In this document: positions 22,691-42,003 of the stretch, one piece after another
Layout: each line of letters starts with the position of its first letter
Numbering within the stretch: the first letter of the stretch is position 1
Origin: a virus
Virus record (IMG/VR): IMGVR_UViG_3300037367_000013
Span: 1 to 61,849 of that record
Reading direction: 5' to 3' (one strand)
Length of the DNA: 61,849 nucleotides
Notes under the pieces: model-generated
Databases searched by the model: none
Seen by the model: only the letters and a program-made list of their open reading frames with translations
Told to the model about the DNA's origin: nothing
Translations under genes and position numbers: made by a program

Positions 22691-24193
22691 ATGGTCGCAC
22701 TGGCTTTGACCTCTGGCGCCTATCAAAGTGAATCGTATATCGCTTCCGCCCAAAGGGCGATAAATCTGTTTACAGAAAAGAACCCACAAGAAACAAATTC
22801 AAAGTTTCCGACCACGCAATATGTGCGGCCAGGACTATTGTTGCAGGGCACGCCGCCCCAACTGGTCGCTGGCCGTTGTCTTTATGGAGCTACGAATGGC
22901 GATCTCTATGCCGTCATAGGGCAGGGGATTTTCTATGTTAATCCCGACAATGTTTTCAATCAGATCGGGACTGTAATTTCTGATCTCACCACACCATGCT
23001 ACATGGCGGACAACGGAACAAATATCCTTTTGGTTGATGGTTCTGCTTATGGCTACCAGATCAATATGGCAAGTCGCGTTGTTACGCAGGTAGCCGATCC
23101 GAATTTCCTAGGCTCGGATCGCGTTGATTTCATCGACTCATATCTGATCCTCAATAAACCAAAGACAAACGAATGGTACTGCACACTATCTGATGAAGTG
23201 GCGTGGAACGCGCTTTATATCGGCGTCAAGACGGCGTGGCCTGATAATGTCCTGTGTGTTGTAGCCATTGAACGTGAAGTCTGGGTGTTCGGACCAAAGA
23301 AAAGCGAAGTCTGGTACAACGCGGGTGCTACACCTTTCCCGTTCCAGATATTGCCCGGCGTTATCATTGAGCAGGGCTGCGCGGCAAAATATTCGCCAGC
23401 CAAAATGGATACTAACGTTTACTGGCTATCCCAATCGCCGGAAGGCGCGCGGATGGTCATGCGCGGGAATGCCCAGAACGTTGCGCAGCGAGTTTCGACG
23501 CACGCCATTGAAGAAGAGTTCCTAAGTTACGCGCGGGTTGATGACGCGATAGGTTCTGTTTACCAGATTGAAGGCCATTCGTTCTACGAACTGCACTTTC
23601 CAAGCGCGGACAAGACTTGGGCTTTCGATCAGGCGACCGAACAGTGGATGGAAGATTGTTCGATAGATAACAACGGCGTTCTGCATCGCGCCAGAAATTC
23701 TTTTACGGCTTACGCCTATGGAAAGAATTACGGCCTCGATTGGAATACCGGGCTGCTCTATCTGATAGACCAAAAGACCTATACCGATAACGGTCAAGTC
23801 ATTCCGTGGATCAGGTCGTTTCCACATTATGCCAACGAACTGAAATATCAAAATCTGGCGGCCATCGTTGCCGATGTTGAAACCGGAACTAGACCGAATA
23901 CCGGCGAATCCACGCAATTTCTGTCGCCGTGGAGTTCAGGTTTTAGTTCTGGATTTGGGCCGCTTACTGAGGTTCCGGCGCCAGTCATAAATCTTCGTGT
24001 CTCACGAAATGGCGGCGCTTCCTACGGCAATAACCGTCCTAAGGGGATGGTTGGCTCAGGACGTTATCGGTCGATGATGCGCTGGCGAGGCAATGGCATG
24101 GCGCGCGATTGGGTTATTGAATTGAGTTCTACCGCCGCAATGTCTGGCGCTCTCAATGGGGCGTATATCGATCCCATCGGGGCTAATGCGTGA
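22691..24193 (+). CDS. P22 gp10-like tail hub / packaged DNA stabilisation protein
   Basis: 500 residues, size as in P22 gp10. Characteristic start (ESYIASAQRAINLFTEKNPQ), YVRPGLLLQGTPP, VDFIDSYLILNKPKTNEWYC, WVFGPKKSEVWYNAGATPFP, YWLSQSPEGARMVMRGNAQN and RWRGNGMARDWVIELSSTAA. It plugs the portal after packaging. Followed directly (GTGA overlap) by a fibre-like gene. Confidence 0.85.
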   Translation: MVALALTSGAYQSESYIASAQRAINLFTEKNPQETNSKFPTTQYVRPGLLLQGTPPQLVAGRCLYGATNGDLYAVIGQGIFYVNPDNVFNQIGTVISDLTTPCYMADNGTNILLVDGSAYGYQINMASRVVTQVADPNFLGSDRVDFIDSYLILNKPKTNEWYCTLSDEVAWNALYIGVKTAWPDNVLCVVAIEREVWVFGPKKSEVWYNAGATPFPFQILPGVIIEQGCAAKYSPAKMDTNVYWLSQSPEGARMVMRGNAQNVAQRVSTHAIEEEFLSYARVDDAIGSVYQIEGHSFYELHFPSADKTWAFDQATEQWMEDCSIDNNGVLHRARNSFTAYAYGKNYGLDWNTGLLYLIDQKTYTDNGQVIPWIRSFPHYANELKYQNLAAIVADVETGTRPNTGESTQFLSPWSSGFSSGFGPLTEVPAPVINLRVSRNGGASYGNNRPKGMVGSGRYRSMMRWRGNGMARDWVIELSSTAAMSGALNGAYIDPIGANA

Positions 24194-24657: not shown

Positions 24658-25347
24658 ATGCCTGTCGGCGCCACAATAGGAGCGATTGGTTCTATCGCTG
24701 GGGCCGGGCTTGGTGTGTTCGGGTCACTAACTGCATCCAAGCAACAGCAGCAGGGATTGCAAGCAGCTCTTGCCGCGCAGGAGGGAATGTTCAACACGGC
24801 CCAAGGTGCGTTGCAGCCTTATTATACAACGGGTGCCGGTGTCGGATCGACTTTAAGTTCGCTGCTGACTCCTGGTGCCAATCAGACCGCTACGCTCTCA
24901 CAAATTCCGGGCTACCAATTCGCCCAAAATTGGGGACAGCAAGCGGTTCAAAATCTTGGCACCACAACTGGACTTGGCGGAAACACGCTGACTGCCGGTG
25001 CCAATTTTGCAACCGGGCTAGCGCAACAGAATTTTGGTCAATTGATCAATCCGCTTCTGAGCCTTTATCAGACCGGAGCGGGCGCAGCCAGTTCGTTGGC
25101 TGGCGCGGCAGGGCAATTCAGCGGGCAAATCGGTCAGACTCAGGCCGGTATTGGTCAAGCGCAAGCCGCAGGCACGTTAGGTGCGACCAATGCGGCGTCC
25201 AGCGGTTTAACGGGTGCGTCGAATTCGATCCTCAATACAGCATTGTTCAGCCGTTTGCTCGGTGGCGCTAATAACGCAAGTAATCCCGGTATCTATTCGA
25301 CGGGCTCAGTGCCTTATCCAAACGCGCCTTTTAGTGCTGGTGCCTAA
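24658..25347 (+). CDS. DNA ejection (pilot) protein, P22 gp7/gp20-like
   Basis: 229 residues. N-terminal Gly/Ala-rich hydrophobic stretch (GATIGAIGSIAGAGLGVFGS) then Gln/Ala-rich repeats (GQIGQTQAGIGQAQAAG). This composition is typical of ejection proteins that leave the virion and help DNA through the envelope. Gene order after the gp10-like protein matches P22. Confidence 0.68.
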   Translation: MPVGATIGAIGSIAGAGLGVFGSLTASKQQQQGLQAALAAQEGMFNTAQGALQPYYTTGAGVGSTLSSLLTPGANQTATLSQIPGYQFAQNWGQQAVQNLGTTTGLGGNTLTAGANFATGLAQQNFGQLINPLLSLYQTGAGAASSLAGAAGQFSGQIGQTQAGIGQAQAAGTLGATNAASSGLTGASNSILNTALFSRLLGGANNASNPGIYSTGSVPYPNAPFSAGA

Positions 25348-25895: not shown

Positions 25896-27060
25896 TCTCA
25901 GCGGATTATACCCGCAACCCCCGCAACAAAACCAAAGTTTGCTAAGTGGCAATCCGCAGCAATTGATTGGGACGCTCGGCGAATTGCAGCGCATTGGTAT
26001 TTTGAATCAGCAGGCGCCTGCTCTAATGCAGGAACCTGCCGCTAATTTACAGAATACGCAGATCGCCAATCAGACGGCACAGATTCAACAGCAGGAAGCG
26101 GCGCGAAAATTGGTATGGGGTGCGCTCGGTAACGGCATCAACGGCATGGGTAATCCATCGCCAGATGATGTGCATAATACCGTCGTCAATCTCTCGCGCG
26201 CTTATCCGCAGATCGCGACACAATATCCCGACATTTTCAATTCAGCGTCGGACATGCTCTTAGCGCCGGGCGGCATCAAGAAAAATGCCGCTGTCATGAT
26301 GAATTCGGTCATGTCGCCCGAAGCTGCTTCTGCGCCGACCGACGTGGGTTTCGATTCACAAACAGGACGGACAACGACTGGAACGCGTGGTCAGTTCAAT
26401 GTAACTGCAGCATCAGGTCCAGTATCAACACAGGCCCCTCCTGGTACGGCGGAATCCGCGCAAGTCATGCAAAGCGATTTGCAGCGTGCCGGCACGTTCA
26501 GTCAGGATATGTTCCCGTGGCAACAGGCATTGAAAAAATTACAGGCGCTTGGTCCCGGTGCGACTGCCCCCGGTTCGCAAGGGCGTCAGGAATTGGAATC
26601 ATTCATCTATGGCTTGGCTCCAAGCCTCGTCCCTCAAACTGAGCTTGACAAGATCAAAAACTACGCCGATTTGCAAAAATATCTGACGAACGCGATGCAG
26701 CAGCGCGCCCAGAATCTTGGCCCTCATACCAATGAGGGGCTTTCAACGATGGCGACTGGAAGCCCGAACGTTAATATCAACGATATGTCGGTCGATGAGC
26801 TGATCAAAGCCAATATCGGATTGAGACGAGCGGAGCAGGCGCAAATTCTGGAATCTGCGAAAGCTGGTCCCGCTAATTACACTGGCGCAAAAGCGCAGAT
26901 AGCTGGAAATCAGGACATAACCGCTTTTGGCATGGACATGATGTCGCCTGAACAGATTGCTGGCCTTCAAAAGAACTTGAAAGGCGGCGCGCGGGCGAAA
27001 TTTAATTCATCGCTTCATTCTGCAATTAGCAACGGCCTGATTACGCCTCCAGGTCAGTAA
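25888..27060 (+). CDS. Internal virion / ejection protein
   Basis: 390 residues, Gln/Asn/Ala-rich, with long helices (ELQRIGILNQQAPALMQEPA, QNTQIANQTAQIQQQEAARK) and a helical C-terminus. No catalytic motif. Stop overlaps the start of the cell-wall hydrolase fusion, so the two may be co-injected. Confidence 0.6.
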   Translation: MPDLSGLYPQPPQQNQSLLSGNPQQLIGTLGELQRIGILNQQAPALMQEPAANLQNTQIANQTAQIQQQEAARKLVWGALGNGINGMGNPSPDDVHNTVVNLSRAYPQIATQYPDIFNSASDMLLAPGGIKKNAAVMMNSVMSPEAASAPTDVGFDSQTGRTTTGTRGQFNVTAASGPVSTQAPPGTAESAQVMQSDLQRAGTFSQDMFPWQQALKKLQALGPGATAPGSQGRQELESFIYGLAPSLVPQTELDKIKNYADLQKYLTNAMQQRAQNLGPHTNEGLSTMATGSPNVNINDMSVDELIKANIGLRRAEQAQILESAKAGPANYTGAKAQIAGNQDITAFGMDMMSPEQIAGLQKNLKGGARAKFNSSLHSAISNGLITPPGQ

Positions 27061-29339
27061 TGGCAGACACTTTAACGCCAGACGATCTTGATGCAGTGAC
27101 CAGAACTGTTCTCGCCGAGGCCGGAAACCAAGGCGACAACGGAATGGCTGCGGTTGCCTCTGTGATCAGGAACCGTGTTAATTCAGGTCAATATGGAAAT
27201 TCGCCCTCTGATGTAGTGTTGGCCCCTGATCAATTCTCGGCGTGGTCATTACCGCGCAACGATCCGAATAACCCTTCGCGGTTTTCCACTAAAAATCCGC
27301 AATATCAGCATGCGGCAAATATTGTGAATTCCGTTTGGTCGGGAAAAACGCCAGACCAAACGAATGGTGCCGATCATTACTTGAATCCTTCAATTGTCCA
27401 AGCCCAGAAAGGAACCTTACCAGCTTGGGCACAGGGACAGCCTACTGCTCAAATTGGCGCGCATTCTTTCTATTCGCAAAGCGGTCCTGACTTGCTAGGC
27501 GCATGGAACGCGCCTTCCACTGGGGCCCCTTCCGCTGGCACTGCACCCGCGTCAACCGCTGCTCCTGATTTGCTCGGATCATGGGGCAATAATGCCGCTC
27601 CTGACATAACCGCCGGCGCACAATCGCCATTGCGCATTACTATTCATCCGCAGAATTACGCGCCCGCGCCAGGGCAACCGGAAACCCCGGCACAATGGAC
27701 CAATCGTATTCTCGCTGAACATCAAGGCGATAATCTAACGGATGAGGCGGTGCGTCTTGGCGTTGGGGGATTGCGTGGTGTTGGGGACGTTGCCGATACA
27801 ATTGCACAGGCGGCGGCATCGACTGGAACGGCAGGCGCAAATGTTCTGCAAAATGCCGGCGTGATCTCGCCACAAACGGCAGGCGCGGTTCAGAATTGGG
27901 GGGCCAATGTCAACCAGCGCGTCATTCAAGCCCGCAATTCCTTCGACGATCTTTCCGCGAACAGTCCTCTGGCGCAAGCCGGTAGAATTGGTGGTCAGAT
28001 TATTGGTACTGGCCCTCTTCTTGGTGCTGGTGGGGCAGCAATTGAGGGAGCGACGGGACTCAGCACAGTACTAGCAGCGCGTCCAGTAATTGGGGCAGCA
28101 TTGACCGGCGCCGGTGCTGGCGCGGGCGCATCTGCGCTTACATCCGCCGCCTCAGATCAGTCGTTAGGTCAGCAGATTGGGACTGGTGCGTTAGCCGGTG
28201 GATTACTTGGACCGTTAGGTTATGGCGCTTCTAAAGTTGGGGCCGGAATTAATCGCGGTCTGTTTGGTTCAATCGCACCAGAAACCGCACAGCTTGCGCA
28301 GACCGCGCGCGACACTTATGGAATTCCGGTTACTGCCGGCCAGATGAGTACTAGCCCTCCCGTGCGCTTTCTCGATTCGGTTCTGCAAAGACTGCCATTT
28401 TCCGGGTACGCTTCCAGAACTGCACAGCAGCAATCCGGGCTTAATCGCGCGGTTGCCAACGAAATGGGTGTCAGCGTGGACGCAATTACCCCCAGCGTGA
28501 TCGATACGGCCAAGAAAACAGCATACGCTGATTATGACGCCGCGAAGTCGAATATGGGTACGCTGAATGTTGACCAGAAATTCGGCGACGACCTAAAGAA
28601 CGTTTACGATAACGCGCATTACAATCTCGAACCGGCTCAAGCCAAACTGGTTGATAAGCATTTGTCGAATGTCTTGAGCAAAGTCGATCAAACTAACGGA
28701 ACACTAGACCCTGATCTATATCAGACATTGACGCGAAAGAATGGTCCTCTTGATAACGCGATCAATTCTCGCGATTCCAAGGTTTCGACTTACGCATCTA
28801 ATATCAAGGATGCTCTTGAAAATCTTGTGGGGCGGAATGATCCCGCTCTAAAAAAGCTCAAGGACGAGGCAGACTACAAATATTTTGTTGCCAAGTCTCT
28901 GGAGAATGGCCGCGAGAATTTAATATCGGCATCGGGTGACGTTAATCCGTCGCTGCTTTATGGGGCCGTTGATAGAAGCGGGACGCCTATCGGAACATTA
29001 GGCCAAATCGGCAAACGCTTTATGCGCGAGCCGCCAAGTTCTGGAACCACCGAACGCGCTTTGACGATGGGTCTTATTGGCAGCGGGCTAGGTGCGATTG
29101 GGTACGGTGGATATGAGTTCGATCCCGACAACTTTCAACGCAACGCGGCACTTAGCGTAGCGGCGCTTTTAGCCGGACGCGGCGGAAGCGCGATCCTCAG
29201 AAGCGGTCCTCTTGCTAATGCGCTTATCCGTTCTGGCGGTGGATCGGCTCAACGTTATCCATTTGTGAATCTCTTGTCGCGTGCTGCGCCTGCCGCTGCG
29301 CTCACTTACCGAAACGCCAATGGGCTTCCCGGTCAATAG
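27060..29339 (+). CDS. Ejection protein with N-terminal SleB-type cell-wall hydrolase
   Basis: 759 residues. Residues about 8-140 match the SleB/hydrolase_2 family: TRTVLAEAGNQGDNGMAAVA with catalytic Glu15, VIRNRVNSGQ, PDQFSAW and ADHYLNP. Residues 280-390 are Gly/Ala-rich and hydrophobic; the rest is helical. In P22 gp16 occupies this place, and many phages put a muralytic domain on an ejection protein to open the peptidoglycan for DNA entry. It closes the conserved virion block. Confidence 0.82.
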   Translation: MADTLTPDDLDAVTRTVLAEAGNQGDNGMAAVASVIRNRVNSGQYGNSPSDVVLAPDQFSAWSLPRNDPNNPSRFSTKNPQYQHAANIVNSVWSGKTPDQTNGADHYLNPSIVQAQKGTLPAWAQGQPTAQIGAHSFYSQSGPDLLGAWNAPSTGAPSAGTAPASTAAPDLLGSWGNNAAPDITAGAQSPLRITIHPQNYAPAPGQPETPAQWTNRILAEHQGDNLTDEAVRLGVGGLRGVGDVADTIAQAAASTGTAGANVLQNAGVISPQTAGAVQNWGANVNQRVIQARNSFDDLSANSPLAQAGRIGGQIIGTGPLLGAGGAAIEGATGLSTVLAARPVIGAALTGAGAGAGASALTSAASDQSLGQQIGTGALAGGLLGPLGYGASKVGAGINRGLFGSIAPETAQLAQTARDTYGIPVTAGQMSTSPPVRFLDSVLQRLPFSGYASRTAQQQSGLNRAVANEMGVSVDAITPSVIDTAKKTAYADYDAAKSNMGTLNVDQKFGDDLKNVYDNAHYNLEPAQAKLVDKHLSNVLSKVDQTNGTLDPDLYQTLTRKNGPLDNAINSRDSKVSTYASNIKDALENLVGRNDPALKKLKDEADYKYFVAKSLENGRENLISASGDVNPSLLYGAVDRSGTPIGTLGQIGKRFMREPPSSGTTERALTMGLIGSGLGAIGYGGYEFDPDNFQRNAALSVAALLAGRGGSAILRSGPLANALIRSGGGSAQRYPFVNLLSRAAPAAALTYRNANGLPGQ

Positions 29340-29419: not shown

Positions 29420-31342
29420 TTGAACCCATTGCGCTATTTTATTCCGATCTTGACAGCCGCGCTAGTAGCGTTCGGTGGGGTAGAAGCGCATGCGCAGGCG
29501 ACACTTTTACCGCCGGGCGAAACTTGCTTCACGGCATTGACGCCGACTTCCGGTGGACCTAATGGTACAGGGACGGGTTTTGTCGGCCTCCTTGGAACGA
29601 TTACGGCCGGGAGTGGGGGCACGACAGGCACATATTCCGCTGCATTCACGGGCGGCCATGGCACCGGGGCCACCGGCATTTTCACGGTGTCTGGTGGCGG
29701 CGTTACTGCCGTTTCCGTTCTCAATCCCGGGCAAGGTTTTGCTGTTGGCGATACGTTGTCTGCATCCTCTGCCAACATCGGAAATGTCTCTGGCTTCTCT
29801 GTTCCAGTTTCGAGTGTTGCCATCAATCAATCACTCGCTGGCGGAAGTGTCTATTATTACATTCCAAACACTGGAACGTTTAAACAGACGTGGCAGAATT
29901 CCGGGCAGACTGTTCTAAATACTAATCCGGTCACTCTCGATGCGAATGGCTGTGCAATTGTTTATGGCGCCGGAATCTATCGTCAGGTTTTAGAGGACTC
30001 GCAAAATAATATCGTCTGGGATCAGCTCACCGCCTCAACGGGAACGCCGGGCGCTTTCTATTGGGCAAATCTCGCGGGCGGCACCGCTAACGTCATTACC
30101 GTTACGGATGCTTCGTTTGCCGGCACTGACGGCCAGATTATTTCCTTCATTCCGCTTTTCACCAATACCGGCGCGGCTACGCTCAATGTGTCAAGCTATG
30201 GTGCGGTTCCGATTGTCAAGGATACGGGGACTGGAGCAGTAGCTCTGACTGGCGGCGAGATAGTCGCTAACTCGCCGTCGAATATCGTTGAAGTTGAATT
30301 CTCGGCAACACAACAGAATTTCCATATCCTGAACTTGGTGCAGGCGTCCGCTTCTGCCGCGCCAGTACAGCCACCACAGGGTTATCTCAACGATGTTGGG
30401 GTTGCCAACGGTGGCCCAATCCAAGGCGGTACGGACATTTCGGCGGCAACCACGATTTATTACACGCCTTATGTCGGCAACCAAATCCCAATTTGGAATG
30501 GTTCATCTTTCACCATTCTAACATTTTCTGAATTGGATTTAGTGCTGTCATCGTCGGCGCAATCAGCGTCAACTATTTATGATGTTTGCGTGTTCAATAA
30601 CGGTGGTGTGCCGACGATAGTGTTTGGTCCGGCATGGTCAGACTCCGCAGCAGGTGCAGGGGCGCGCGGCACAGGAGCAGGTTCGGCGCAGATCAGCTAT
30701 CAAAGCGGCATTCTCGTCAATACCGGACAGATTGCGGCTAACAACGGTTCTAACAGCTACACAGTGCCAGCACTGGAATGCACCTACGTCGGTTCGATTT
30801 TTATCGATGGCACCGCAGGCGAAGTCAGCACCAACAGAGTCTTTGGGCAAAACCGGAAATGGGGAATATGGAATGCCTACAATAGAGTTCCAATTGGGCT
30901 GCAGGTAGGGGACAGCACAGCAAGTTGGGAATATGACACCGCGACAATCAGAGCATCCAATGCCGCCCCGGCTTCATATTCTGGAGCTACCTTCAATGCT
31001 GGGAGTGGAACGACCGCAAACGGACTTACTGTTTTTACAGGATTGGCCGAAGAGGAAGCTAATTGTTCTTTTTCACAGAAAACTTCCAACAATGCCAATG
31101 CCGGGAACGTTATGTCCAATGGAATTGGACTGAATTCAACTACGGCGTTTTCGGGTGTGGTTGGGCAGAACCTAGTGCCTGGAACCACAAAAACTGTTTA
31201 CCAACCCGTAGCTCATTACATAGTAGCGCCTTCCCTTGGAACAAACGTAATTGCGGCCCTGGAGGAAGGCCCGACCGGGACTACTAATCTATTTTATGGC
31301 ACCCAATCCAACATGCTTCTGCAATGCAGTTATCGCGGATGA
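29420..31342 (+). CDS. Exported tail-fibre/spike-like protein
   Basis: 640 residues from a TTG 5 bases after an AAAGGAG site. Signal peptide of about 25 residues ending EAHA, then mature N-terminus [17 protein letters not shown]. Residues 30-220 carry Gly/Thr-rich repeats and [40 protein letters not shown], a segment commonly found in N-terminal phage fibre domains. The C-terminal 250 residues form a separate beta domain. It is probably the main adhesin, yet carries an export signal. The ORF is open from 29375. Confidence 0.7.
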
Positions 31343-32562
31343 TGAAGTACATTCTCTTAGCGTGTGCGCTTGTCTGTGTGCCGTGCGCTGCAGTTGCGCA
31401 AACTGGATCGTCAAAATCCACTACGGCGCTTACGACCGAAACAAATTCGCTATGGCCTGATAATACTGTTGGCACGATTACGCCTTTCAATGCCCGTCAA
31501 ACTCTGCTCGATATCATCAGTTCGTATGCCAATTTCACAACCAATAATCCGGTAATAGCTGGCGGCACGACAGCGGTTGGAACGGGAAGCTCGCAAGCAA
31601 CGGTAGTTACGTCCGCCAACACTGCAAATCAAAATCAGATATGGTCGCTCAATTCAGGAACGACTAGCAATGCTAGCACTGAGGCCAATCTATTCGCCGG
31701 GCTCGGTGGCACAGGATCGAATTTATATGTCGCGCTCTCTACTATAGGGGGGGCTTCGCCGTCGGCTACTTTGGCGAGTTCGACGGGTCTCACTGGCGGT
31801 TTTACCATCAGCGCCGGCGCGGGACCGTTGACAGTGGAAAGTCCGACGCTTGTTACCGCCGCTCTTGGTACGCCAGCTTCGGGTGTTCTGACAAATGCAA
31901 TAGGGCTTCCTCTCACAACCGGCGTAACCGGCAATCTGCCAGTCACCAATCTGAATGGAGGGACAAGCGCATCGTCATCGACATTCTGGCGCGGTGACGG
32001 AACGTGGGCCTCTACCTCCGGTGCGACTATAGCTTTGCTCGCAACGTTGACCGCAAGCAATTCCGCTACGTTGACAGATGTTGGCAATTGTAGCACGGGA
32101 GCCGGTGCAGGATGCTTTACCTCATCCTATAGCCGCTATGAAATCGTTTTTGAAAATATGGTGCCGGCCACAACCGAGCAACCGCTTGAACTGCAAGTCT
32201 ATACCGGCGGCGCATACAAGACGAGCGGCTACTTCGCAAATATGTTTGCTTACATTGGCGGCACGCCAGTCAATGGTCAGCCGACGACTTTCATTCCACT
32301 CAATTACACGACGGCCAATAGTGATAACTCCGCAAATTCAGCACCGGGTATCAGCGGCACGATCAACGTCATAAACCCATCGGCCAACGCCATTGCGGAA
32401 TGGTACGGACAATCGAGTTGGCTTCAACAGACCGGCAGCTATACGTCCGTTGGGCAAATAAGCGGGCTGTGGAACACGGCAGGCGTTGTTACAGGCTTTC
32501 AGGTTCTGTTTGCGTCCGGCAACATCACGTCAGGCGTCATCAAAATTTACGGCGTCCAGTGA
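31339..32562 (+). CDS. Exported tail-fibre protein with receptor-binding-type C-terminus
   Basis: 407 residues. Signal peptide [20 protein letters not shown] before QTG. Then [20 protein letters not shown], and a repetitive shaft ([45 protein letters not shown]) widely seen in alphaproteobacterial phage fibres. The last 150 residues ([20 protein letters not shown] ...) are a compact beta domain. ATG 31339 overlaps the upstream stop; GTG/ATG options upstream would add up to five residues. Confidence 0.72.
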
Positions 32563-32607
32563 CGCGGCAGTTTGGTGAACGAATCCGGTCTCTCAATTTG
32601 CACAACG

Positions 32608-32620
32608 TTGCGTGACGCAA
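32608..32620. repeat. 13-base palindrome in an intergenic gap
   Basis: TTGCGTgACGCAA is a perfect 6-bp inverted repeat with one central base, in the 118-base gap between two fibre genes. It could be an operator or a small hairpin. No promoter could be assigned with confidence. Confidence 0.3.
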
Positions 32621-32680
32621 ATTCTTCTATCTAAGCCGTCAAACCGGCCCATCTAACCACACAAATCATCGGTGATCGGC

Positions 32681-32929
32681 ATGCGACTCTTATCGCCGCG
32701 CGCATTTGTATTGTTAGCGGTCATGCTTGTGCTGGCGAGCATGGCTAAGGCGGACGGGATTTTCAATCCGACTGCAACGACCGGAACGACAACGGTTGGC
32801 GGCGGTGAAGGTATCAACAATCTCAGCATCGGCGGTGGTGGCAGCGGTCCACCCCCAACCTGTTCAAACAAACTCGATTTCTCAGTCGCGTGCAACAGCC
32901 AATACGTCTCTGTCCTCGGACTCATGTGA
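32681..32929 (+). CDS. Small exported Gly-rich protein
   Basis: 82 residues. Signal peptide MRLLSPRAFVLLAVMLVLAS to MAKA, then FNPTATTGTTTVGGGEGINN and a GGGGSGPPP linker, ending in a Cys-containing tail (CSNKLDFSVACNSQYV). Probably a periplasmic or surface peptide, perhaps an anchor for its neighbours. A GTG at 32672 would add three residues. Confidence 0.55.
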   Translation: MRLLSPRAFVLLAVMLVLASMAKADGIFNPTATTGTTTVGGGEGINNLSIGGGGSGPPPTCSNKLDFSVACNSQYVSVLGLM

Positions 32930-32930
32930 G

Positions 32931-33815
32931 ATGAAAATCATGCGGCAAATTCTATACGGCATAATCGCAAGCTTATTTGCGATTAGTACGGCGAATGCGG
33001 GGTCTGGTACAATCAACGTTACGCCAGGAAGCGGCGCTACTTATGCTGTCACTACAGATGGCAGCGGTAATTTCATAGGGCATTTTGGCCTTTGGGATTA
33101 CGCGGCAGGGGCGAACGGTGCCGGTATTGATACTTCGCATGGACTGTTGGTAGACCCGGCTGCTGTTGCGACATGGGGCCTAACGCCTCTCGGGGGTACG
33201 ACTAGTTCTCCGACCAACGCATGGCTTGCAGGCTGCCAATACCTTGCCAGCGCGCCGACATACACGACAGGCGATTCTGGGGCTATTCAATGTACGATTA
33301 ATGGCTATCCGATTGTTAGTGTAGCTAATACCAATCCCAACGGCACCACGACCGCCGCCAACAGCTCCCCCGTCACGCTCGCCACCAACAGCCCCGGCAT
33401 CATCACTCTTGGGCCAGCGGCGGATACGAGTTCGGTTCCGGTTGTCCAGGGGCCAACCTCATCAGCCACTAGTGCGCTATCCAAGGCCAGCACAACGGCG
33501 CTCGGCACGTCGCTTGTGGTCAAAGCTAGTGCGGGTAATCTCTACGGCTTTAACGTCACTGGCGTAGCAGGCGCGGCCGCTGGATATGCCATCGTCTATA
33601 ACGGCACGACGGCACCCGGTACCGGCGCGCTGACTGGCGCGAACGTGCTGGACTTCTGCTATTTCGATACAACGGCGCGGGGCTGCGCCCTGAGCTATAT
33701 CCCGCTGGCGGCGGCTTACTCGACGGGGATTGTTGTTCTCGTTAGTTCGGCTGCGTCGCCCTACACCTACACAACCGGCACCGACACGGCGGCAATCACG
33801 GCGGTTTACAAATGA
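32931..33815 (+). CDS. Exported fibre-like protein
   Basis: 294 residues. Signal peptide MKIMRQILYGIIASLFAIST to ANA, then GSGTINVTPGSGATYAVTTD. Beta-rich throughout with four or more Cys in the mature part. The end (VLDFCYFDTTARGCALSYIP, VVLVSSAASPYTYTTGTDTA) looks like a lectin-type jelly-roll strand pattern. Overlaps the next start by four bases. Confidence 0.6.
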   Translation: MKIMRQILYGIIASLFAISTANAGSGTINVTPGSGATYAVTTDGSGNFIGHFGLWDYAAGANGAGIDTSHGLLVDPAAVATWGLTPLGGTTSSPTNAWLAGCQYLASAPTYTTGDSGAIQCTINGYPIVSVANTNPNGTTTAANSSPVTLATNSPGIITLGPAADTSSVPVVQGPTSSATSALSKASTTALGTSLVVKASAGNLYGFNVTGVAGAAAGYAIVYNGTTAPGTGALTGANVLDFCYFDTTARGCALSYIPLAAAYSTGIVVLVSSAASPYTYTTGTDTAAITAVYK

Positions 33816-34711
33816 GTCTCATCCGCAAACTTTTCCTCGCCCTCCTATGCAGCGCATTTCTTGCCTTGCCTGCGTGGGCGCAGTTGGTGTTGCCGGGGTC
33901 GTCGGGGGGCGGCGGGGGTTCCGGCTGCGCCACCACTGGGTGCACATATACTGGGACTGTGACATTCAATGACGCTAGCACCTATGGAAGTAGCGGCATC
34001 TCAGGGCTGCTCGGGCTTGCGATAAGTGGTGGAACCGTTACGTCAAGCACGCCGCCTTTAACAATAGCCCAAACTTGGAACAACTCCGGTACCGCTTTCA
34101 ATATGTTTACGATGACTGCGACAGTAACAGCGGACAATAATAATTCTACTTTTGGGGTCATGAAAAGAGGTACTACAACCGAATTCACATTTGGTGAATT
34201 TGGTGTTCTTAATATTAACAACTACGCGACATTTGGTAGCATCAACACACCATACATGGAAGTAGGGTCCTCAGCTTCGCAGGCTTCCGTCATACAAAGT
34301 ACGGGCCTATATGGATGGTCGTCGGGTACTAATGTGGCGGGTGCTTGTGATACCTGTTTAGGGCGCTCAGCAGCGGGGGTTGTCAAAGCGTTTGGTGCAT
34401 CATCTGCGGTTGGTAATTTTCAGTCGCAAAGTTTTATTTCAATCGGCTCGCCTCCAACATTGACCGGAACCTGTACGACAGGATCACAAGTTGGCGGGAA
34501 TACCGCAGGTACATTCGCCGCTACGTGTGTTGCACAAACCGTCATCATGACTTTTGCCTACACAGCTCCCAATGGATGGGTCTGCGATGCGCACGATCAA
34601 AGCACGCCTGCTGATGTGCTCAACCAAACTGCAAATTCAACCACGCAGGTAACTTTAACTGGAACAACGGTTGCCTCAGATTCCATCGCCTTCAAGTGCA
34701 TGGCGTTCTAA
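33812..34711 (+). CDS. Exported fibre-like protein with Gly linker
   Basis: 299 residues. Signal peptide MSLIRKLFLALLCSAFLALP to AWA; mature N-terminus QLVLPGSSGGGGGSG, similar to the protein at 36605. Central Asn/Thr/Ser-rich beta repeats, then a Cys-rich region (GACDTCLGRSAAG) and a C-terminal domain (VIMTFAYTAPNGWVCDAHDQ). Probably a surface or fibre component. Confidence 0.6.
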   Translation: MSLIRKLFLALLCSAFLALPAWAQLVLPGSSGGGGGSGCATTGCTYTGTVTFNDASTYGSSGISGLLGLAISGGTVTSSTPPLTIAQTWNNSGTAFNMFTMTATVTADNNNSTFGVMKRGTTTEFTFGEFGVLNINNYATFGSINTPYMEVGSSASQASVIQSTGLYGWSSGTNVAGACDTCLGRSAAGVVKAFGASSAVGNFQSQSFISIGSPPTLTGTCTTGSQVGGNTAGTFAATCVAQTVIMTFAYTAPNGWVCDAHDQSTPADVLNQTANSTTQVTLTGTTVASDSIAFKCMAF

Positions 34712-34713
34712 TC

Positions 34714-35985
34714 GTGCGCCGCCCGATTGATCTAAAACGCATTCTGTTGGCTCGCCGTAATTTTCTGCTAGCCAGCGGGCTAGGAACGTTCGGCGGATTA
34801 TTTCAACTGAGCGCCGCGCAGGCAGTAACTGGCGTGCAGGGAACGCCAGCCTCTTTCAACTCATCTGGTGCATTATCAAATGCGGTCAGCGCGACAGCAA
34901 GGCGCGGCCTCCTTTCACTTTTTGCTTGGATCATCTTATCGAGTGCCGCGTCGGCGGGGTTTTTCTGTCAGTGCGCTCTTGGTGGTCTGGTTGCTGGGAC
35001 ATGGCAACCGCCAGCCATGTCATCGAACGGCGCGTATATTTACGTTCCAACGTTTCCAGACTCAATTCTAGGAAATCCTCCAGGCTATATTCATTCTACA
35101 AGTACCACCGGAGCTACTTGGGCAAGACAAACAAATTGGGGTAATCGCTTTTGGGTTGTTGGCTGCACGTCGTCGGATGGAACTATAGTCTACGAGGCCG
35201 ATCAGGGAAGTGGCAGCGGCGGTCTAATTTATAAATCTGTTAATGGCGGCGCTCCAACAGCCACCAATTTTCCACAACTGGCGTGGCAACAAGTCTCATG
35301 CGATAATTCAGGGGCTGACCTCGTTGGGTGTGTCGGGACGCAGAGTACGCGAGCTGATCTGTTTACATCAGTTGACGGTGGAAACACCGTCATAGATCAA
35401 ACCACAAGTTTGAGCCGAGATTATACATCCTGTGTTATTTCTGGCGATGGTACTAAAATTGCAGCCTCAAACGAGGCTGGGCAGGGCCCAAACGGCGATG
35501 GCTGCATTTACGTCTCAATCAACTGGCAGAGCGGAAGTCCGACATGGACTGAAAATATCTGTGCAGCTAATGGATCGACATTTGCTTCCAACGTTGCTTA
35601 TTGCCGAACCGGATCGACGCTTTACGCTGGTTTTAATGCTAATGGTAACAGCAGCCATGTGTTTAAGAGCACGAACGATGGAGGCTCCTGGACTGACGTA
35701 AATCCGCCGGGCGGCACAGCAGCGCAGCGTAATTGGTTTTGGGTTGCCTGCGATGCCGATGGTCAAGTAGCCACAGCATCTAATTACGATTATTTATACG
35801 TCTATACTAGTGGCACTTGGGGACCGCAGTTGCCTATCTCTCCGAACGGACCTGGTAACCATCAAAACGGCTATCAGGCCATTTCAGATAATGGTCAGAT
35901 TATCGTCAACGCAGTCTACGCAGCTTACATCTACGTTTCGCAGGATGGCGGTTCCACTTTCCCTGTAACGAACGCCTCACCATGA
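34714..35985 (+). CDS. Tat-type exported beta-propeller (BNR-like) protein
   Basis: 423 residues from GTG two bases after the previous stop. N-terminus has a twin-arginine-like motif (ARRNFLLAS, Arg14-Arg15) and hydrophobic segment ending SAAQA. A second hydrophobic segment follows at 66-80 after another Arg pair. Residues 100-420 show repeated propeller blades with Asp-box-like motifs (SVDGGNT, STNDGGSW, SQDGGST) and many Cys. Such propellers occur in sialidases and sugar-binding proteins. No sialidase catalytic set was identified. Confidence 0.6.
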   Translation: MRRPIDLKRILLARRNFLLASGLGTFGGLFQLSAAQAVTGVQGTPASFNSSGALSNAVSATARRGLLSLFAWIILSSAASAGFFCQCALGGLVAGTWQPPAMSSNGAYIYVPTFPDSILGNPPGYIHSTSTTGATWARQTNWGNRFWVVGCTSSDGTIVYEADQGSGSGGLIYKSVNGGAPTATNFPQLAWQQVSCDNSGADLVGCVGTQSTRADLFTSVDGGNTVIDQTTSLSRDYTSCVISGDGTKIAASNEAGQGPNGDGCIYVSINWQSGSPTWTENICAANGSTFASNVAYCRTGSTLYAGFNANGNSSHVFKSTNDGGSWTDVNPPGGTAAQRNWFWVACDADGQVATASNYDYLYVYTSGTWGPQLPISPNGPGNHQNGYQAISDNGQIIVNAVYAAYIYVSQDGGSTFPVTNASP

Positions 35986-36608
35986 CTCGCTTTGCCCCAT
36001 TCCTCGCCGTCCTCCTATTCTGCGCTGGGAGTGCCGCAGCGGCACAAGTCAGCACACCAGTCCCCACAGCGCCCACTTACAACAGCGGCGCGTATGGCTG
36101 GCCCATACAGGGTGTGCTTGGCGGAACGCCAGTCCCAGTCACGGTTACCAATCCGACTGCTCCAGTCTCGGCCACGATTGCTTGGCCTACAACACCACTC
36201 ACAGTTACAGTCGGCAACGTGTTTAATCCGGGCTTTGCCGGTTCTGGTCCAGCCTCACCCGTCGTAGCATCACCGAGTTGCACGAAGGTCATCAATATCA
36301 GCCAGACGGCCTCGACCGACGTGCATACATTTACCAATCTCGGCTACATCTGCACGATTATTCTCATCGGCACGGCGCAGAACATCGGCATCGAGGAGGG
36401 CACCGGGACGCTTTGCAAGACCGCCAGCACGCCTCTGTTCGGCATATCACCCGCTGGCCTTCCTACGACGGCGATAAACAGTGGTGGGTTCTCAGCGCCA
36501 TCAGGCACGCCTTGGCTGGTAACACAGACCGTCGCGGATCACCTGTGTATCTTGCAGAGTGGCAACGGCAACGTGTCGGGCACAATCACTTATTTGGATC
36601 ATCCATGA
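35982..36608 (+). CDS. Exported hypothetical fibre-cassette protein
   Basis: 208 residues. Signal peptide MTRFAPFLAVLLFCAGSAAA, then Pro/Thr/Val-rich stalk (TPVPTAPTYNSGAYGWPIQG, VPVTVTNPTAPVSATIAWPT) and a compact domain with four Cys (SCTKVINISQTASTDVHTFT ... LCKTAS ... HLCILQSG). Overlaps neighbours by ATGA at both ends. No family recognised. Confidence 0.58.
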   Translation: MTRFAPFLAVLLFCAGSAAAAQVSTPVPTAPTYNSGAYGWPIQGVLGGTPVPVTVTNPTAPVSATIAWPTTPLTVTVGNVFNPGFAGSGPASPVVASPSCTKVINISQTASTDVHTFTNLGYICTIILIGTAQNIGIEEGTGTLCKTASTPLFGISPAGLPTTAINSGGFSAPSGTPWLVTQTVADHLCILQSGNGNVSGTITYLDHP

Positions 36609-37378
36609 AAAGATTTCTGCCAATCCTTGCGGTGTTGCTGGTTTGCGTTGGCCTATTCTGCCTGGCGCAAGCGCCGTCCCGCGCGCAGGGATGGTTGCCG
36701 CTGGGGGCGGCGAGTGGGGGCGGAGGATCGTTCTCGCTGACTTATGCGACCTTCGCCAACAATGCCCCAACCTGTTGCAGCGGTGTCACCTTAGTCGATT
36801 TTAATACGTTGACATGGGGACCGGGATGCAACGCGCTTGTCGTTGATGTAACATTCAGCGGTCCTCCTACCGCGATTGATGTTAGCGGCATTTCAATCGG
36901 CGGCAGCGGCGGAACGGGCGGCCTCGGTGGATCAGAAGTAACGGGCAGCTATGCGTCCAATACCAGCGGAAACGTCTTTTCGACAATCTGGCAAACATCT
37001 GGTGCGCCATCCGGCAGTTCTGGCGATGTTGGTGTAAGCTTTACCGGAGCGGTTGGGCAATTCAGTTCGGACGTTTCGGTGGCGCTGTATTGTTTGATTT
37101 CGGCGCATCTGACGGGCGTTGGTGCAAATAGTCAGACATTCGCGACCAGCGTTTCACAGTCAATTGCTGTTCCAAGCGGCGGTAAAGGTATAGCGGCAGT
37201 TTTACAAAGTAGCAGCGGCGCTGTGACGTTGACGAATGCCACGCTTGACAAAGGCCCCGTAGGGAGCAGCGTGTTTTCCAATTTTGCCAGCGTAACCGGC
37301 AACGGTAGCACAATCGCGGTGACGGCAGGCGGCCCGAATGTATCGTGGGCGCTTTCAGAGGCAGCGTGGGGGCCGTGA
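36605..37378 (+). CDS. Exported fibre-cassette protein
   Basis: 257 residues from ATG 36605 (ATGA overlap). Signal peptide of about 27 residues ending PSRA; mature N-terminus QGWLPLGAASGGGGSFS. The body is beta-rich (LTYATFANNAPTCCSGVTLV, ALVVDVTFSGPPTAIDVSGI) and resembles small phage fibre-tip domains in style. The longer open frame from 36278 overlaps the preceding gene and is rejected. Confidence 0.6.
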   Translation: MKRFLPILAVLLVCVGLFCLAQAPSRAQGWLPLGAASGGGGSFSLTYATFANNAPTCCSGVTLVDFNTLTWGPGCNALVVDVTFSGPPTAIDVSGISIGGSGGTGGLGGSEVTGSYASNTSGNVFSTIWQTSGAPSGSSGDVGVSFTGAVGQFSSDVSVALYCLISAHLTGVGANSQTFATSVSQSIAVPSGGKGIAAVLQSSSGAVTLTNATLDKGPVGSSVFSNFASVTGNGSTIAVTAGGPNVSWALSEAAWGP

Positions 37379-39852
37379 TGCGGCGTGTCCTCAGTGCTCT
37401 AGCGATATTCGCAAGCAGTATGGGCGCAGCTTGCGCGGGCATGGCCCCGGTGTTCATGTGGAACGGTGGCGGCGGGAGCCTAGCAGCGCCGCAAGTCCAG
37501 ATCGGCGTCGGCGGGACCGAGTTCTTCGGTTACAGCAATACGACGCCAACCTTCATAAACTGGTTCAAGGGCTCGCAGTATAATTTGAACGGCAACGCGC
37601 CGACAGTGTTGGACGCAAATCAATATCCCAACGCGGCGGCAATGACCGCCAGCATGTCGTTCAATCCGACGTTTCAGCCCACCCGCGCTATCTATAGCGG
37701 AAATTGGGAAGAGGGCTGGACTGGAACTTGGGCGCTGCAAAACCAAAGCACAATTACGGTCGTATCTGATCCGCAGAGTTGCAATCAGGGTAGCGGGCTG
37801 TTTTCCGGCACGAACTGTGACGTGACGTTCTCGTACACGGCCGATCCTAACGGTGCCGTCACTATACCGCAGAGCACCTATTCCGGTGTCTCCGGCGCGT
37901 TCCTGATCCGATCATCGGACAAGACGGACTACACGAACGGCAAAGTGTTTCTGCCCGAGTTTCGCAGCATCGTTAATTCGTCAGGGCTAAACCCGCTCGC
38001 GCTGCGAACTATGAGCGCCGGACTGACGATCGTCGGAAGTTGGCGGGATAGACTGCCGGTCGCTGCGGCTTCATACGGTTTAAATTACTGGGTGCCGAAC
38101 GATTGGGCCGGGGCAGATACGACGCACACCGATAACTACGTCCTGACCTCCTATCCGAACATGCCGGGAAGCTGGACGGATAGTGAACTTTTTCAGGCGA
38201 GTTTTACGCACGCGAGTAATACTACTATAGCGATCACCGCTGCGGCGAATGACAGTGGGAATAATCAGGTTCAGTTAACCGTGGGCTCGACAGCGGCCCT
38301 GAGCACCAATCAGAATGTATTGGTTGCAAATTGTGCGAGCAATCTTCCGCCAACAGTCTATGCGATAACCGTAAAAACCGGCACGACCCTAGACTTGCAG
38401 GGGACAACGTACTCGTCCGGCGTATGGAGTAATTGCCCGGTAAGCGCGTCGTTCGCGCCGGGCTTCATATCGACAACGACGGTCAATGTCGGTAGCCGTG
38501 GCCCAAAATTCGTCTTGCCACTAACTAATCTTGGCTTCTTTAGCGTGCCGTCCTCGACGATTGCCTCAAGCGATACGGGTACATTCGTTTACAACGCATT
38601 GTTAGGAGTTTTGCTCTATACCAGCGGCGGGATAACCTACATCAGCGGCGGCGAGGGGCCATTGCCGCCTGAGATAATGGCTGAACTTGCTAACGAAGCT
38701 GGCACCGCTCTGTGGTGGAACATTCCTCCATTCTGGCACGCCGCAGATGTTAATTCGGCGGTCAGCTATTTTAACTCCAACCTTAATAGCGATCTCTTTA
38801 TTGAGTATAATAACGAGAATTGGAATTTCCTGTCTGTGTTCATGACACAGAACGGATACGCCCTTGGGTTGCCGAATGGGTCTAACGAGGGGCTTTACAG
38901 CTATGTCGGCCTGGAAATCAGACAATTATTCGGGGCAGCAACGTCCGCGTGGACTAGAGGCTCATCGCATCTCCATCGCATCAATGCCGCGCAGGCTGGC
39001 GCCGGAACGCTCGCTCCAGACTTTGCGAGTTACCAATTCGCAGGCGCAGCTTTGTGCGGGACTAGCTGCGGAAATTCTACTTACCAGGCCGCTGTGGGCA
39101 CCGACTACAATGTTTCACCAAATCGCCCGAAGGACTTTAGCGATGCCTATGCCATCGCGACTTATTTTCAGGGCGCACAGGCCCAAGGCGATGTTGCAAG
39201 TTCGCTGACGCAAATCACCGGGATGTGCAACGGCACGACTTGCACCGGATTGATCGCGGCGGCGTCCTGCTATGCCGCGCCATCCAATACGACCTGTGGA
39301 ACGGGCGGAACCGCCGCGCTGGCATATCAATTCATCGATAATGACCTCCGAAGCGGCAATTTGATCGGACAGAGCGGTTGCGCGAACAATAACACGACGA
39401 TCTCCTGCATCGAACCGGGGTTTTTCACTACCTGGCAGGGCATCGCCAATACCGACGGCAAGCAACTCGTCGCCTACGAGGGAGGATTTAGCGGGGCTGG
39501 CCCATCGGTCGCTGGGTTGACGGCCTTGGGCGATGGCAATGCCTCGACCGATGCGACCAATATCAACAATCTGTTGATTGCCTACAGGAACCAGTCGTTG
39601 TTCCAGACGACCTACACTCTGTTGAACACGACGTGGTTCTCAAATTCTACAGTGACCGGAAATGCCAATCTTGGCGTCGAGGCCGGCACGATAAGCATAG
39701 GAGCCTATAATCTGGGTTTGATGCCGGGGCTGTTTCCATTTGCGCCTTACCAAAATTACAACGCCATCAAGGCCATCAACTACCTGCTCAAGCGTGATCT
39801 CAATCCGGCGAGTAACGACAACGATCCAGTAGGACTAAGTAAGGTTGCGTAA
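37378..39852 (+). CDS. Large exported glycoside-hydrolase-like protein
   Basis: 824 residues. Signal peptide MRRVLSALAIFASSMGAACA. The body looks like a clan GH-A-type glycosidase with inserted beta domain: FIEYNNENWN carries an Asn-Glu pair (Glu480) typical of the acid/base, and LVAYEGGFSG (Glu701) fits the nucleophile on a later strand. Spacing of 221 residues is longer than the usual clan value but an insertion rich in Cys and Thr lies between. It may degrade host surface polysaccharide. Start overlaps the previous stop. Confidence 0.62.
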   Translation: MRRVLSALAIFASSMGAACAGMAPVFMWNGGGGSLAAPQVQIGVGGTEFFGYSNTTPTFINWFKGSQYNLNGNAPTVLDANQYPNAAAMTASMSFNPTFQPTRAIYSGNWEEGWTGTWALQNQSTITVVSDPQSCNQGSGLFSGTNCDVTFSYTADPNGAVTIPQSTYSGVSGAFLIRSSDKTDYTNGKVFLPEFRSIVNSSGLNPLALRTMSAGLTIVGSWRDRLPVAAASYGLNYWVPNDWAGADTTHTDNYVLTSYPNMPGSWTDSELFQASFTHASNTTIAITAAANDSGNNQVQLTVGSTAALSTNQNVLVANCASNLPPTVYAITVKTGTTLDLQGTTYSSGVWSNCPVSASFAPGFISTTTVNVGSRGPKFVLPLTNLGFFSVPSSTIASSDTGTFVYNALLGVLLYTSGGITYISGGEGPLPPEIMAELANEAGTALWWNIPPFWHAADVNSAVSYFNSNLNSDLFIEYNNENWNFLSVFMTQNGYALGLPNGSNEGLYSYVGLEIRQLFGAATSAWTRGSSHLHRINAAQAGAGTLAPDFASYQFAGAALCGTSCGNSTYQAAVGTDYNVSPNRPKDFSDAYAIATYFQGAQAQGDVASSLTQITGMCNGTTCTGLIAAASCYAAPSNTTCGTGGTAALAYQFIDNDLRSGNLIGQSGCANNNTTISCIEPGFFTTWQGIANTDGKQLVAYEGGFSGAGPSVAGLTALGDGNASTDATNINNLLIAYRNQSLFQTTYTLLNTTWFSNSTVTGNANLGVEAGTISIGAYNLGLMPGLFPFAPYQNYNAIKAINYLLKRDLNPASNDNDPVGLSKVA

Positions 39853-39932
39853 GGTTTTGTTTCATTCCCGACCTGAGCAAGCTTAACCGCCTCACGGTCA
39901 CACTAGCTCCGAAACCACCAAAGGATAACGAC

Positions 39933-40502
39933 ATGCGATGGTTTTTCGCAACGCTCATCTTTTTCTGTGTTTCTTCCGCCGATGCTCATGCACGATATCA
40001 TCATTATGCCCATCACCGCATGTCGGCGGGTGCGCAGCTACTTTCTGCTGGTCTATTGCACCAGCTTGATTCCGTACAGTGGGCGTCACAGCCCAACGCC
40101 GACAATATGGGTACTCCAATTGCGACCGTAGCTATTGAACAAACAAGAATGGTTGGGGCGCGTGGTGTAGCCGTCCATCGCTGGCATGAGGATGGCGGCA
40201 GTGGACTGAGCGCGCCCTGCCGTGAAGCGCGCAGAGAGGGCGGCCCGTGCGGGTGCCACACAGCGGAAACGTTGCTCGGCACATCGCAACACGTTTACCA
40301 CGGCATCAATGTTTGGCTCGCCAATGGCTGGCTGGCATTCCGCCATGTCGCGCCAGCACCGGGTATGGCCGCTGTTTGGCCCGGCCGCCATGTCGCACCG
40401 ATTGTCGCCGTGGATGGTAACACCGTGACCGTCGCTGATTATTTCGGGACGCGAACGGTGCGGATGGCTGGGCTGGTCTTTGTCGATCCACGCTCAAGAT
40501 AG
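39933..40502 (+). CDS. Secreted Cys-Gly-Cys protein, rhizobial type
   Basis: 189 residues. Signal peptide MRWFFATLIFFCVSSADAHA, preceded by AAAGGA. The C-terminal domain has GPCGCHTAETLLG, VWLANGWLAFRHVAPAPGMA, and HVAPIVAVDGNTVTVADYFG, a pattern I associate with small secreted proteins of Bradyrhizobium-like genomes (Cys near start, His before a beta strand, as in CHAP/NlpC-type Cys-His hydrolases). A murein peptidase function is possible but unproven. Confidence 0.6.
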   Translation: MRWFFATLIFFCVSSADAHARYHHYAHHRMSAGAQLLSAGLLHQLDSVQWASQPNADNMGTPIATVAIEQTRMVGARGVAVHRWHEDGGSGLSAPCREARREGGPCGCHTAETLLGTSQHVYHGINVWLANGWLAFRHVAPAPGMAAVWPGRHVAPIVAVDGNTVTVADYFGTRTVRMAGLVFVDPRSR

Positions 40503-40740: not shown

Positions 40741-40877
40741 GGGACCCAGATCATGACGTAAATGTGGAGTGGGCGCGGCTGATTCTAATCTTTATTGCAA
40801 TTATTGGTGCTGGCGCGCTCGCGGTAATTTTTGGCGGCCTGATCTATTTCGGTAGCATGGTGATCCAATGGCCGTGA
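40677..40877 (+). CDS. Small membrane protein (lysis-region)
   Basis: 66 residues. Acidic N-terminus (SENSPDDDPWEIRDPDHDVN) and one long hydrophobic helix (LILIFIAIIGAGALAVIFGG) near the C-terminus. It directly precedes and overlaps the endolysin gene, so it could be a holin or antiholin. Confidence 0.55.
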   Translation: MSWQELFVNSENSPDDDPWEIRDPDHDVNVEWARLILIFIAIIGAGALAVIFGGLIYFGSMVIQWP

Positions 40878-41443
40878 CCGATCCAATCTTCCTGCAATGC
40901 TTGCCATTCACGTTAATGCAGGAATGCAATGTCTACACCGGGACGGCGGCAGATTGGTCAAACCCGAGAAATTTTGACGACGACCCTCACGATCCGGGCG
41001 GCGAAACCCAGTGTGGAATTACAAATGACGAGTTTCAAATAGACCTTAAAAAGTTGGGACTGCCCGCAGTTGACGTGCGGCAGATAACGCAGGCTCAAGG
41101 TCAAGGAATATATTATTCGTCCTACTGGTTGCTGAACTGTCCCAAGCTGCCAATGGGATTAAACCTCCTTGTTTTCGATGAGAACGTAAACGCCGGCGTC
41201 GGCCGTAGCACTCGATTGTTACAAGCGGCGCTGGAAATTACCTCAGATGGAATTTGGGGACCGCAGACCGACGCGGCGGTGAAGGCCATCACCGATCCTG
41301 TTTCGGTCATGAACAAATTTACCGCCGAGCGCGAAGCTTATTATCGGTCGCTTTCGACGTTTCAATATTTCGGCACGGATTGGATACGGCGTTCGCAGCA
41401 GATCGATGCTGACGGATTGAAACTATTTGGAGCAACATCATGA
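40868..41443 (+). CDS. Endolysin, GH108-type muramidase
   Basis: 191 residues. The family signature DPHDPGGETQCGIT is at residues 39-52 and the C-terminal half (LLQAALEITSDGIWGPQTDA) is the peptidoglycan-binding domain paired with GH108. The catalytic Glu would be Glu19 (MQECNVYTG); normally the motif is Glu-Gly-Gly, and here about 12 extra residues separate it from the DPGG motif. Cleaves the glycan strands at lysis. No signal peptide, so a holin is needed. Confidence 0.85.
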   Translation: MAVTDPIFLQCLPFTLMQECNVYTGTAADWSNPRNFDDDPHDPGGETQCGITNDEFQIDLKKLGLPAVDVRQITQAQGQGIYYSSYWLLNCPKLPMGLNLLVFDENVNAGVGRSTRLLQAALEITSDGIWGPQTDAAVKAITDPVSVMNKFTAEREAYYRSLSTFQYFGTDWIRRSQQIDADGLKLFGATS

Positions 41444-42003
41444 CCGTTCATGGCTTCTGGATGTATGGAATGTGGGGACCAATCACCGATCCCGGTGCGC
41501 GTGTCATGACTGATCGCATGGCAAGCGAGCTTGGGCCGATCAACATGCACGGCTCGCCGTATCGCGATTATGATGTGAACACCATCGTCGGAATTATTCT
41601 CAGCTTGCCAGATAGTGATGTGGCACTTGTCGGCGGTACATCGCTCGGCAGCAACAATGGTCCAGTCGTCGGCGCTTATGTCGCGCTGCAAAACATAAAA
41701 CGGATCATTCATGGCCTTTGGGGCTTTCAGGCTTCGGATTACGGCGCGAAAGCTGGCGACCCTTCCTATCCTGGTCTTACATCCAATGTTCTTTTTGCTC
41801 ACCTGACCAGAAGCGACACGATTATTCCGGTGCCTGGCATCGGTGCATATAGCTGGGTCAAGGCCACCGGCAATACCACGACAAATCTTTACATCGACAC
41901 CGTTGACGATGTGCATCCGGGCGACGGCAACACCAGTATTCAAGATAAATATTTGGCTGAAATGAAACGAGTCATCGCGACTGCCACAGGAGCAACATCG
42001 TGA
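41440..42003 (+). CDS. Small alpha/beta-hydrolase, LysB-like candidate
   Basis: 187 residues. Nucleophile elbow VALVGGTSLGSNNG (Ser68 in GTSLG), an acid Asp126 in LTRSDTIIPVPG and His159 in DDVHPGDGN give the Ser-Asp-His order of an alpha/beta-hydrolase. It lies between endolysin and the holin candidate with ATGA/GTGA overlaps on both sides, so it is probably a lysis gene. LysB esterases in mycobacteriophages act on the outer envelope; a similar role on a Gram-negative envelope is inference. Confidence 0.65.
   Translation: MTVHGFWMYGMWGPITDPGARVMTDRMASELGPINMHGSPYRDYDVNTIVGIILSLPDSDVALVGGTSLGSNNGPVVGAYVALQNIKRIIHGLWGFQASDYGAKAGDPSYPGLTSNVLFAHLTRSDTIIPVPGIGAYSWVKATGNTTTNLYIDTVDDVHPGDGNTSIQDKYLAEMKRVIATATGATS

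Follow-up and report, generated by a model that had tools for sequence, protein, structure and literature searches.

Predicted export signals on a P22-like tailspike gene and the nine genes that follow it

The receptor-binding proteins of tailed phages are taught as products of the cytoplasm. In the virus considered here, the genes at the tailspike and fibre position all appear to begin with an export signal, which raises the question of whether these proteins leave the cytoplasm and, if they do, how they could still become part of the particle. The window, that is the whole stretch of DNA analysed, is the 61,849-base IMG/VR record IMGVR_UViG_3300037367_000013, a single virus record. Family searches typed it as a P22-like podovirus, with a P22-type portal, coat, gp10-like head closure and ejection genes in order, the P22-type structural genes matching phrog_156, phrog_283, phrog_578, phrog_598 and phrog_26400.

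The ten-gene cluster and its signals

The features of the window on which the argument rests are as follows; signal scores are those at the likely starts, and cysteine (Cys) counts refer to the mature proteins.

11194-13368: portal (family search)
16412-17716: coat (family search)
22691-24193: gp10-like head closure (family search)
24658-25347 and 27060-29339: ejection proteins (family search; the latter also given as ejection/endolysin)
29420..31342, + strand: gene 1, putative tailspike, 640 aa, TTG start, Sec signal with predicted cleavage AHA^QATLLPP, score 5.07, 6 Cys
29828..30028, + strand: head-binding (virion-attachment) domain of gene 1, residues 137-203, tblastn matches to P22-like tailspikes
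31324..32562, + strand: gene 2, Sec signal followed by a tail-fibre-like protein with a repeat and a terminal domain matching phrog_14820 (E 1e-14), score 7.49, 2 Cys
32672..32929, + strand: gene 3, small predicted exported protein, AKA^DG, mature form about 58 aa, score about 7.5, 2 Cys
32931..33815, + strand: gene 4, predicted exported, ANA^GS, score 6.44, 4 Cys
33812..34711, + strand: gene 5, predicted exported, AWA^QL, score 6.58, 8 Cys
34714..35985, + strand: gene 6, Tat-like signal (R14-R15) and then a Sec-like stretch, scores 3.10 and 4.9, 10 Cys
35982..36608, + strand: gene 7, predicted exported, score 6.59, 4 Cys
36605..37378, + strand: gene 8, predicted exported, score 6.97, 4 Cys
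37378..39852, + strand: gene 9, predicted exported, 824 aa, ACA^GM, score 5.43, 12 Cys
39933..40502, + strand: gene 10, small predicted exported protein, ADA^HA, score 5.60, 3 Cys
40868-41443: glycosyl hydrolase 108 endolysin, after the ten-gene cluster (family search)

The ten genes thus occupy the place of the tailspike and fibres in P22-like phages, between the ejection genes and the endolysin, and a capture of host genes in the contig was rejected on the same ground. Since neighbours share some bases or lie almost end to end (31324/31342, 33812/33815, 35982/35985, 36605/36608 and 37378/37378), the ten look like a single late operon. A scan with the ejection protein returned no relatives.

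Signals were scored with a home-made measure that combines the charge of the n-region, the hydrophobic core and the -3/-1 site. On E. coli K-12 proteins all 17 Sec or lipoprotein controls reached at least 4.19, no cytoplasmic control exceeded 3.44, and the Tat control, HyaA, stood at 2.45. An n-region, hydrophobic core and AXA-type cut site are present in nine of the ten genes. The claim from which this work started, that every gene from 29420 to 40502 begins with an export signal, held on this score, with nine clear Sec signals and one Tat-like, and each of the cleavage sites that it listed was found. Within the window 19 of 232 start codons followed by 60 open codons score 4 or more, real starts included. 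In P22-like relatives 1/89 and 2/312 of the genes that precede the tailspike reach 4.5, and because these amount to just three of 401, ten signals in a row are not a product of chance.

The one low scorer, gene 6, has an N-terminus (ARRNFLLASG) that fits the twin-arginine motif, and its start codon is uncertain. Some 50 residues past the Tat-like signal, at about 34885-34957, comes the Sec-like stretch, a tandem that could have arisen by fusion of two genes with signals or as the relic of an old start.

Three further genes of the window may be recorded here. An O-antigen-ligase-like membrane protein (7371-8510; Pfam Wzy_C, E 4e-10, above the cut-off), which could alter the surface polysaccharide of the host, is encoded between the replication and packaging genes. 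Adjoining it is a gene (6680-7324) for a 214-aa protein whose N-terminus resembles a signal (5.42) and which matches nothing in Pfam. After the endolysin, 41440-42003 encodes a 187-aa protein that reads as alpha/beta-hydrolase-like (GGTSLG) and has no family match.

A tailspike behind a signal peptide, and its relatives

Gene 1 provides the strongest link between the signals and the virion. By tblastn its residues 137-203 match the N-terminal attachment domains of the tailspikes of PAE2 (52%), P26218, X14 and several Vibrio phages. A profile built from gene 1 homologues (A2) matches PDB 7eeq, ‘Tailspike head-binding domain', with an E value of 2.7e-9, and the same family profile also matches the tail spike chains of 9vyg and 9vyh. 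The C-terminal part of the protein is related to the Pam5 tail spike and to a protein of the Agrobacterium phage Rivra. The gene lies directly downstream of the ejection proteins, an order shared by four relatives (L101, L109, L111 and L160), and its TTG start stands behind a strong ribosome site, AAAGGAG. The AlphaFold model was unusable (pLDDT 40.5), as was that of gene 6 (41.6). The first strand of the head-binding domain (residues 27-37) follows immediately behind the signal, and about 100 aa are inserted between this strand and the rest of the domain. Classical relatives begin with M-ATLLPNGKQQF and have signal scores below 4. Since the signal of gene 1 sits right before the ATLLPP strand, the predicted cut, AHA^Q-ATLLPP, would leave an ordinary tailspike N-terminus, Q-ATLLPPG as against the usual (M)ATLLPNG. 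Gene 1 is thus, as judged from these matches, a P22-like tailspike carrying a signal peptide, and the simplest reading would be that of an ordinary tailspike that takes an unusual route. P22 gp9, the spike of PDB 7eeq and those of PAE2, P26218 and X14 share with it the position after the ejection proteins, the head-binding domain and the phage type; they differ in starting at the domain, with no signal, whereas gene 1 has the Sec signal, the insert and an even number of cysteines.

The head-binding domain was found at 80 viral loci, which were analysed together with two bacterial genome loci. In about 50 distinct proteins that lack a signal the domain begins at the initiator methionine, mostly 18-21 residues before the LAGG box. 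In 16 distinct proteins, gene 1 included, a signal of about 18-28 residues replaces the methionine ahead of ATLLP or its equivalent, and the cut site falls at, or a few residues from, the junction with the attachment domain. Three spikes (L099, L113 and L115) were counted among those without a signal because their score of 4.07 arises only through a GTG upstream of MTASILPN. On a 66-row tree the presence of the signal changes state twice, as against a mean of 14.5 for shuffled states; the spikes with signals form two clades, which could also go back to a single origin. Gene 1 is most closely related to L101, a signal-bearing protein (score 7.83) that matches it from end to end at 61% identity. 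Five others (L109, L111, L117, L151 and L160) contain the Pfam Collar domain above the cut-off, which suggests that, the signal aside, these are tail fibres of the usual kind. In the clade of L160, L170 and L173-L177 a pair of cysteines (FPxC and TYC), present in none of the relatives without a signal, lies inside the head-binding domain and is a candidate disulfide. A genome scan with the anchor found matches in Cupriavidus and Achromobacter only, none with a true signal; in a 398-genome sample seven genomes matched, all distantly save the Achromobacter seed genome, and no signal was present among those examined.

The evidence for the other nine genes is of a different kind. Gene 2 has at least 581 relatives in viral contigs, and in most phages with its repeat the repeat protein has no signal (all but five of about 77 with a complete start). 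Gene 4 has a weak local match to a protein, L200_1133, that itself bears a signal. Residues 1-41 of gene 8, signal included, are 66% identical to L200_3666 with a different body behind, a pattern that would be a module swap of the kind seen for fibre N-termini. The C-terminal 23 aa of gene 9 are 70% identical to L200_4598, another protein with a signal; the scan with gene 9 gave no relatives, and neither gene 5 nor gene 9 matched anything in phage records. The relatives of gene 10 in two phage loci (L089 and L090) likewise have signal peptides. Near the lysis genes of these loci (L089:13408-13878 and L090:6648-7064) are small proteins in which an SRR-LL twin-arginine motif precedes a lipobox-like AVSGC or TVAGC; they are possibly Tat lipoproteins encoded by phages. 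Of the ten proteins, that of gene 1 alone has a recognised attachment domain. Family searches recognised none in genes 3-10, and they lent no support to a propeller in gene 6 or a glycosidase in gene 9, as the sequence-only reading had proposed. Its description of all ten as virion-type genes can be kept for gene 1, where the head-binding domain is shown, and is supported for gene 2 by the tail-fibre repeat; for genes 3-10 a virion role is hypothetical.

Cysteines and other fibres with signals

Disulfide-bonded proteins usually have even numbers of cysteines. The mature counts are even in nine of the ten proteins of the cluster, in which cysteine makes up 1.62% of residues as against 0.46% in 17 other virion or lysis proteins of the same phage (p 2.6e-8). 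Among the spikes, all 15 clusters that have both a signal and cysteines are even, compared with 14 of 42 without a signal (p 5e-6); relatedness of the sequences inflates these and the other p-values. Over all fetched loci, soluble signal-bearing proteins with at least two cysteines divide 47 even to 4 odd, and the other proteins 322 to 268. The contrast among the homologous spikes is hard to explain unless the forms with signals fold in an oxidising place.

Signals are not confined to the family of gene 1. A second fibre family (ATxxPVQLLNPAGSTSGQ...; phrog_11393) has one in 68 of 69 distinct members and an even cysteine count in 53 of 65. Among its members are gp19 of the cultured Burkholderia phage BcepC6B, annotated as ‘tail fiber protein', and orf35 of the Xanthomonas phage PBR31, annotated as ‘putative structural protein'; the PBR31 paper names a signal only for the esterase gp40 (PMC10975493). 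These fibres resemble the cluster in their conserved Sec signals, mostly even cysteines and related gene position, but they are not homologous to gene 1, and they follow spikes that, wherever seen, are themselves without a signal. Partly for this reason, the rate of signals in downstream genes does not differ significantly between the two kinds of spike (8/26 after those with a signal versus 25/145 after those without, p 0.11). Four loci (L016, L025, L048 and L200) each have three to five adjoining fibre-like genes with signals. At L200:1133-7894, which belongs to the phage of L090, three such genes, with 6, 8 and 24 cysteines, lie upstream of the head-closure gene and not after the ejection genes. 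Phages of these types come from soil, freshwater and culture. Signals are thus kept across distant phages, which is the outcome of the comparison with related phages proposed at the outset. Two cultured podoviruses, JC1 and phiGT1, have fibres without a signal, and since the same holds for most proteins with the gene 2 repeat, export is evidently not required for the job of a fibre.

A possible assembly route and its alternatives

Taken together, the conservation of the signals in distant phages, the cut at the start of the attachment domain, and the enriched and even cysteines make export of these proteins a well supported prediction, and in this respect the earlier interpretation is supported. 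We propose, with a probability of about 0.6, that the receptor-binding parts are exported to the periplasm, where they lose their signals and acquire disulfides, and then join the tails at lysis; within the late operon the ten genes would form the section for receptor binding and appendages. The cytoplasm would, as usual, be where the heads, the tail hub and the ejection proteins are made. The tailspike and the fibre-like proteins that follow would enter the host Sec pathway, perhaps once Tat, and signal peptidase would trim them; the Dsb system would pair their cysteines as they fold in the periplasm. The mature spike would dock on the tail hub once endolysin and holin mix the particles with the periplasm. 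Such docking is conceivable because the cut would restore a normal head-binding N-terminus, and addition of the P22 tailspike is the final assembly step and also works in vitro. What we infer from these sequences is that the proteins are exported in the living cell and form disulfides, that docking takes place during lysis or afterwards, and that the products of genes 2-10 belong to the virion. One may speculate that the phage gains stable fibres and avoids premature binding inside the cell.

It could be argued that the proteins are exported and oxidised but that most never join virions, and instead cover a cell that is dying or lysogenic, or remain in free solution, where they might block receptors against superinfection, stop progeny from sticking to debris or trim surface polysaccharide. 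Genes 3-10, with no recognised attachment domain, the relatives of gene 10 near lysis genes, and the O-antigen-ligase-like gene, which points to a phage that acts on the cell surface, would all fit such a role, and because the spike that accompanies the second fibre family has no signal, the fibre exported alongside it might have its place outside the virion. The tailspike attachment domain, however, is kept in gene 1 and its relatives, five of which have the tail-collar domain, and L160-type phages show no spike gene after the ejection genes other than the signal-bearing one, from which it follows that at least the gene 1-type protein should be in the particle. As a general account, wholesale exclusion from virions therefore seems to us unlikely, at something over one chance in five; genes 3-10 may nevertheless include secreted accessory proteins, and could conceivably form a separate periplasmic or surface complex.

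The N-termini are also hydrophobic enough for membrane insertion, and the sequence-only reading had allowed that they might be retained as virion anchors; they might equally tether the fibres to the inner membrane at the site of assembly. We regard retention as improbable because gene 1 has a separate, conserved attachment domain behind the cut, one that relatives without a hydrophobic stretch use alone; the place of the cut, where the signal meets this domain, is likewise conserved, and cysteines in even numbers speak for domains that are oxidised and set free. Least probable of all, at a few chances in a hundred, is that translation really begins further downstream and that the signals are never translated or are fortuitous. 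Several starts are indeed GTG or TTG or have no good ribosome site, and a few L174/L177-type spikes contain an internal TTG with a ribosome-like site, but most of the spikes with signals have an ATG and a ribosome site before the signal and usually no credible start behind it. Signal character is retained, moreover, despite the divergence of the 16 spikes and of the second family, and the rate among upstream genes argues against chance.

Phage proteins that use Sec are known in other settings. The coat proteins of filamentous phages (inoviruses), M13 pIII among them, are structural proteins with cleaved Sec signals (PMC8310372), but they assemble at the membrane during extrusion without lysis and do not belong to tailed phages. 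SAR endolysins, Rz1 spanins and Lom-type outer-membrane proteins likewise go through Sec, as products of the late phase or of lysogeny, but they are not tail parts and have no virion-attachment domain. Searches of the openly available full-text literature brought to light no previous description of a tailed phage that exports its tail fibres, consistent with the suggestion that the system is undescribed.

Export of the receptor-binding proteins by a large group of tailed phages would, if true, be a new assembly route. We would give even odds to the broader proposal that several tailed-phage lineages split their assembly between cytoplasmic, DNA-filled, hub-bearing particles and periplasmic, disulfide-bonded spikes and fibres, which become infectious only when lysis mixes the two, so that infectivity hangs on host Sec and Dsb and no progeny bind before lysis. 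Such a route would explain disulfide-rich fibres, tie phage yield to host Sec and Dsb, and change how fibres are expressed in practice. In phage annotation, moreover, a gene could no longer be ruled out as a virion component on the strength of a signal peptide.
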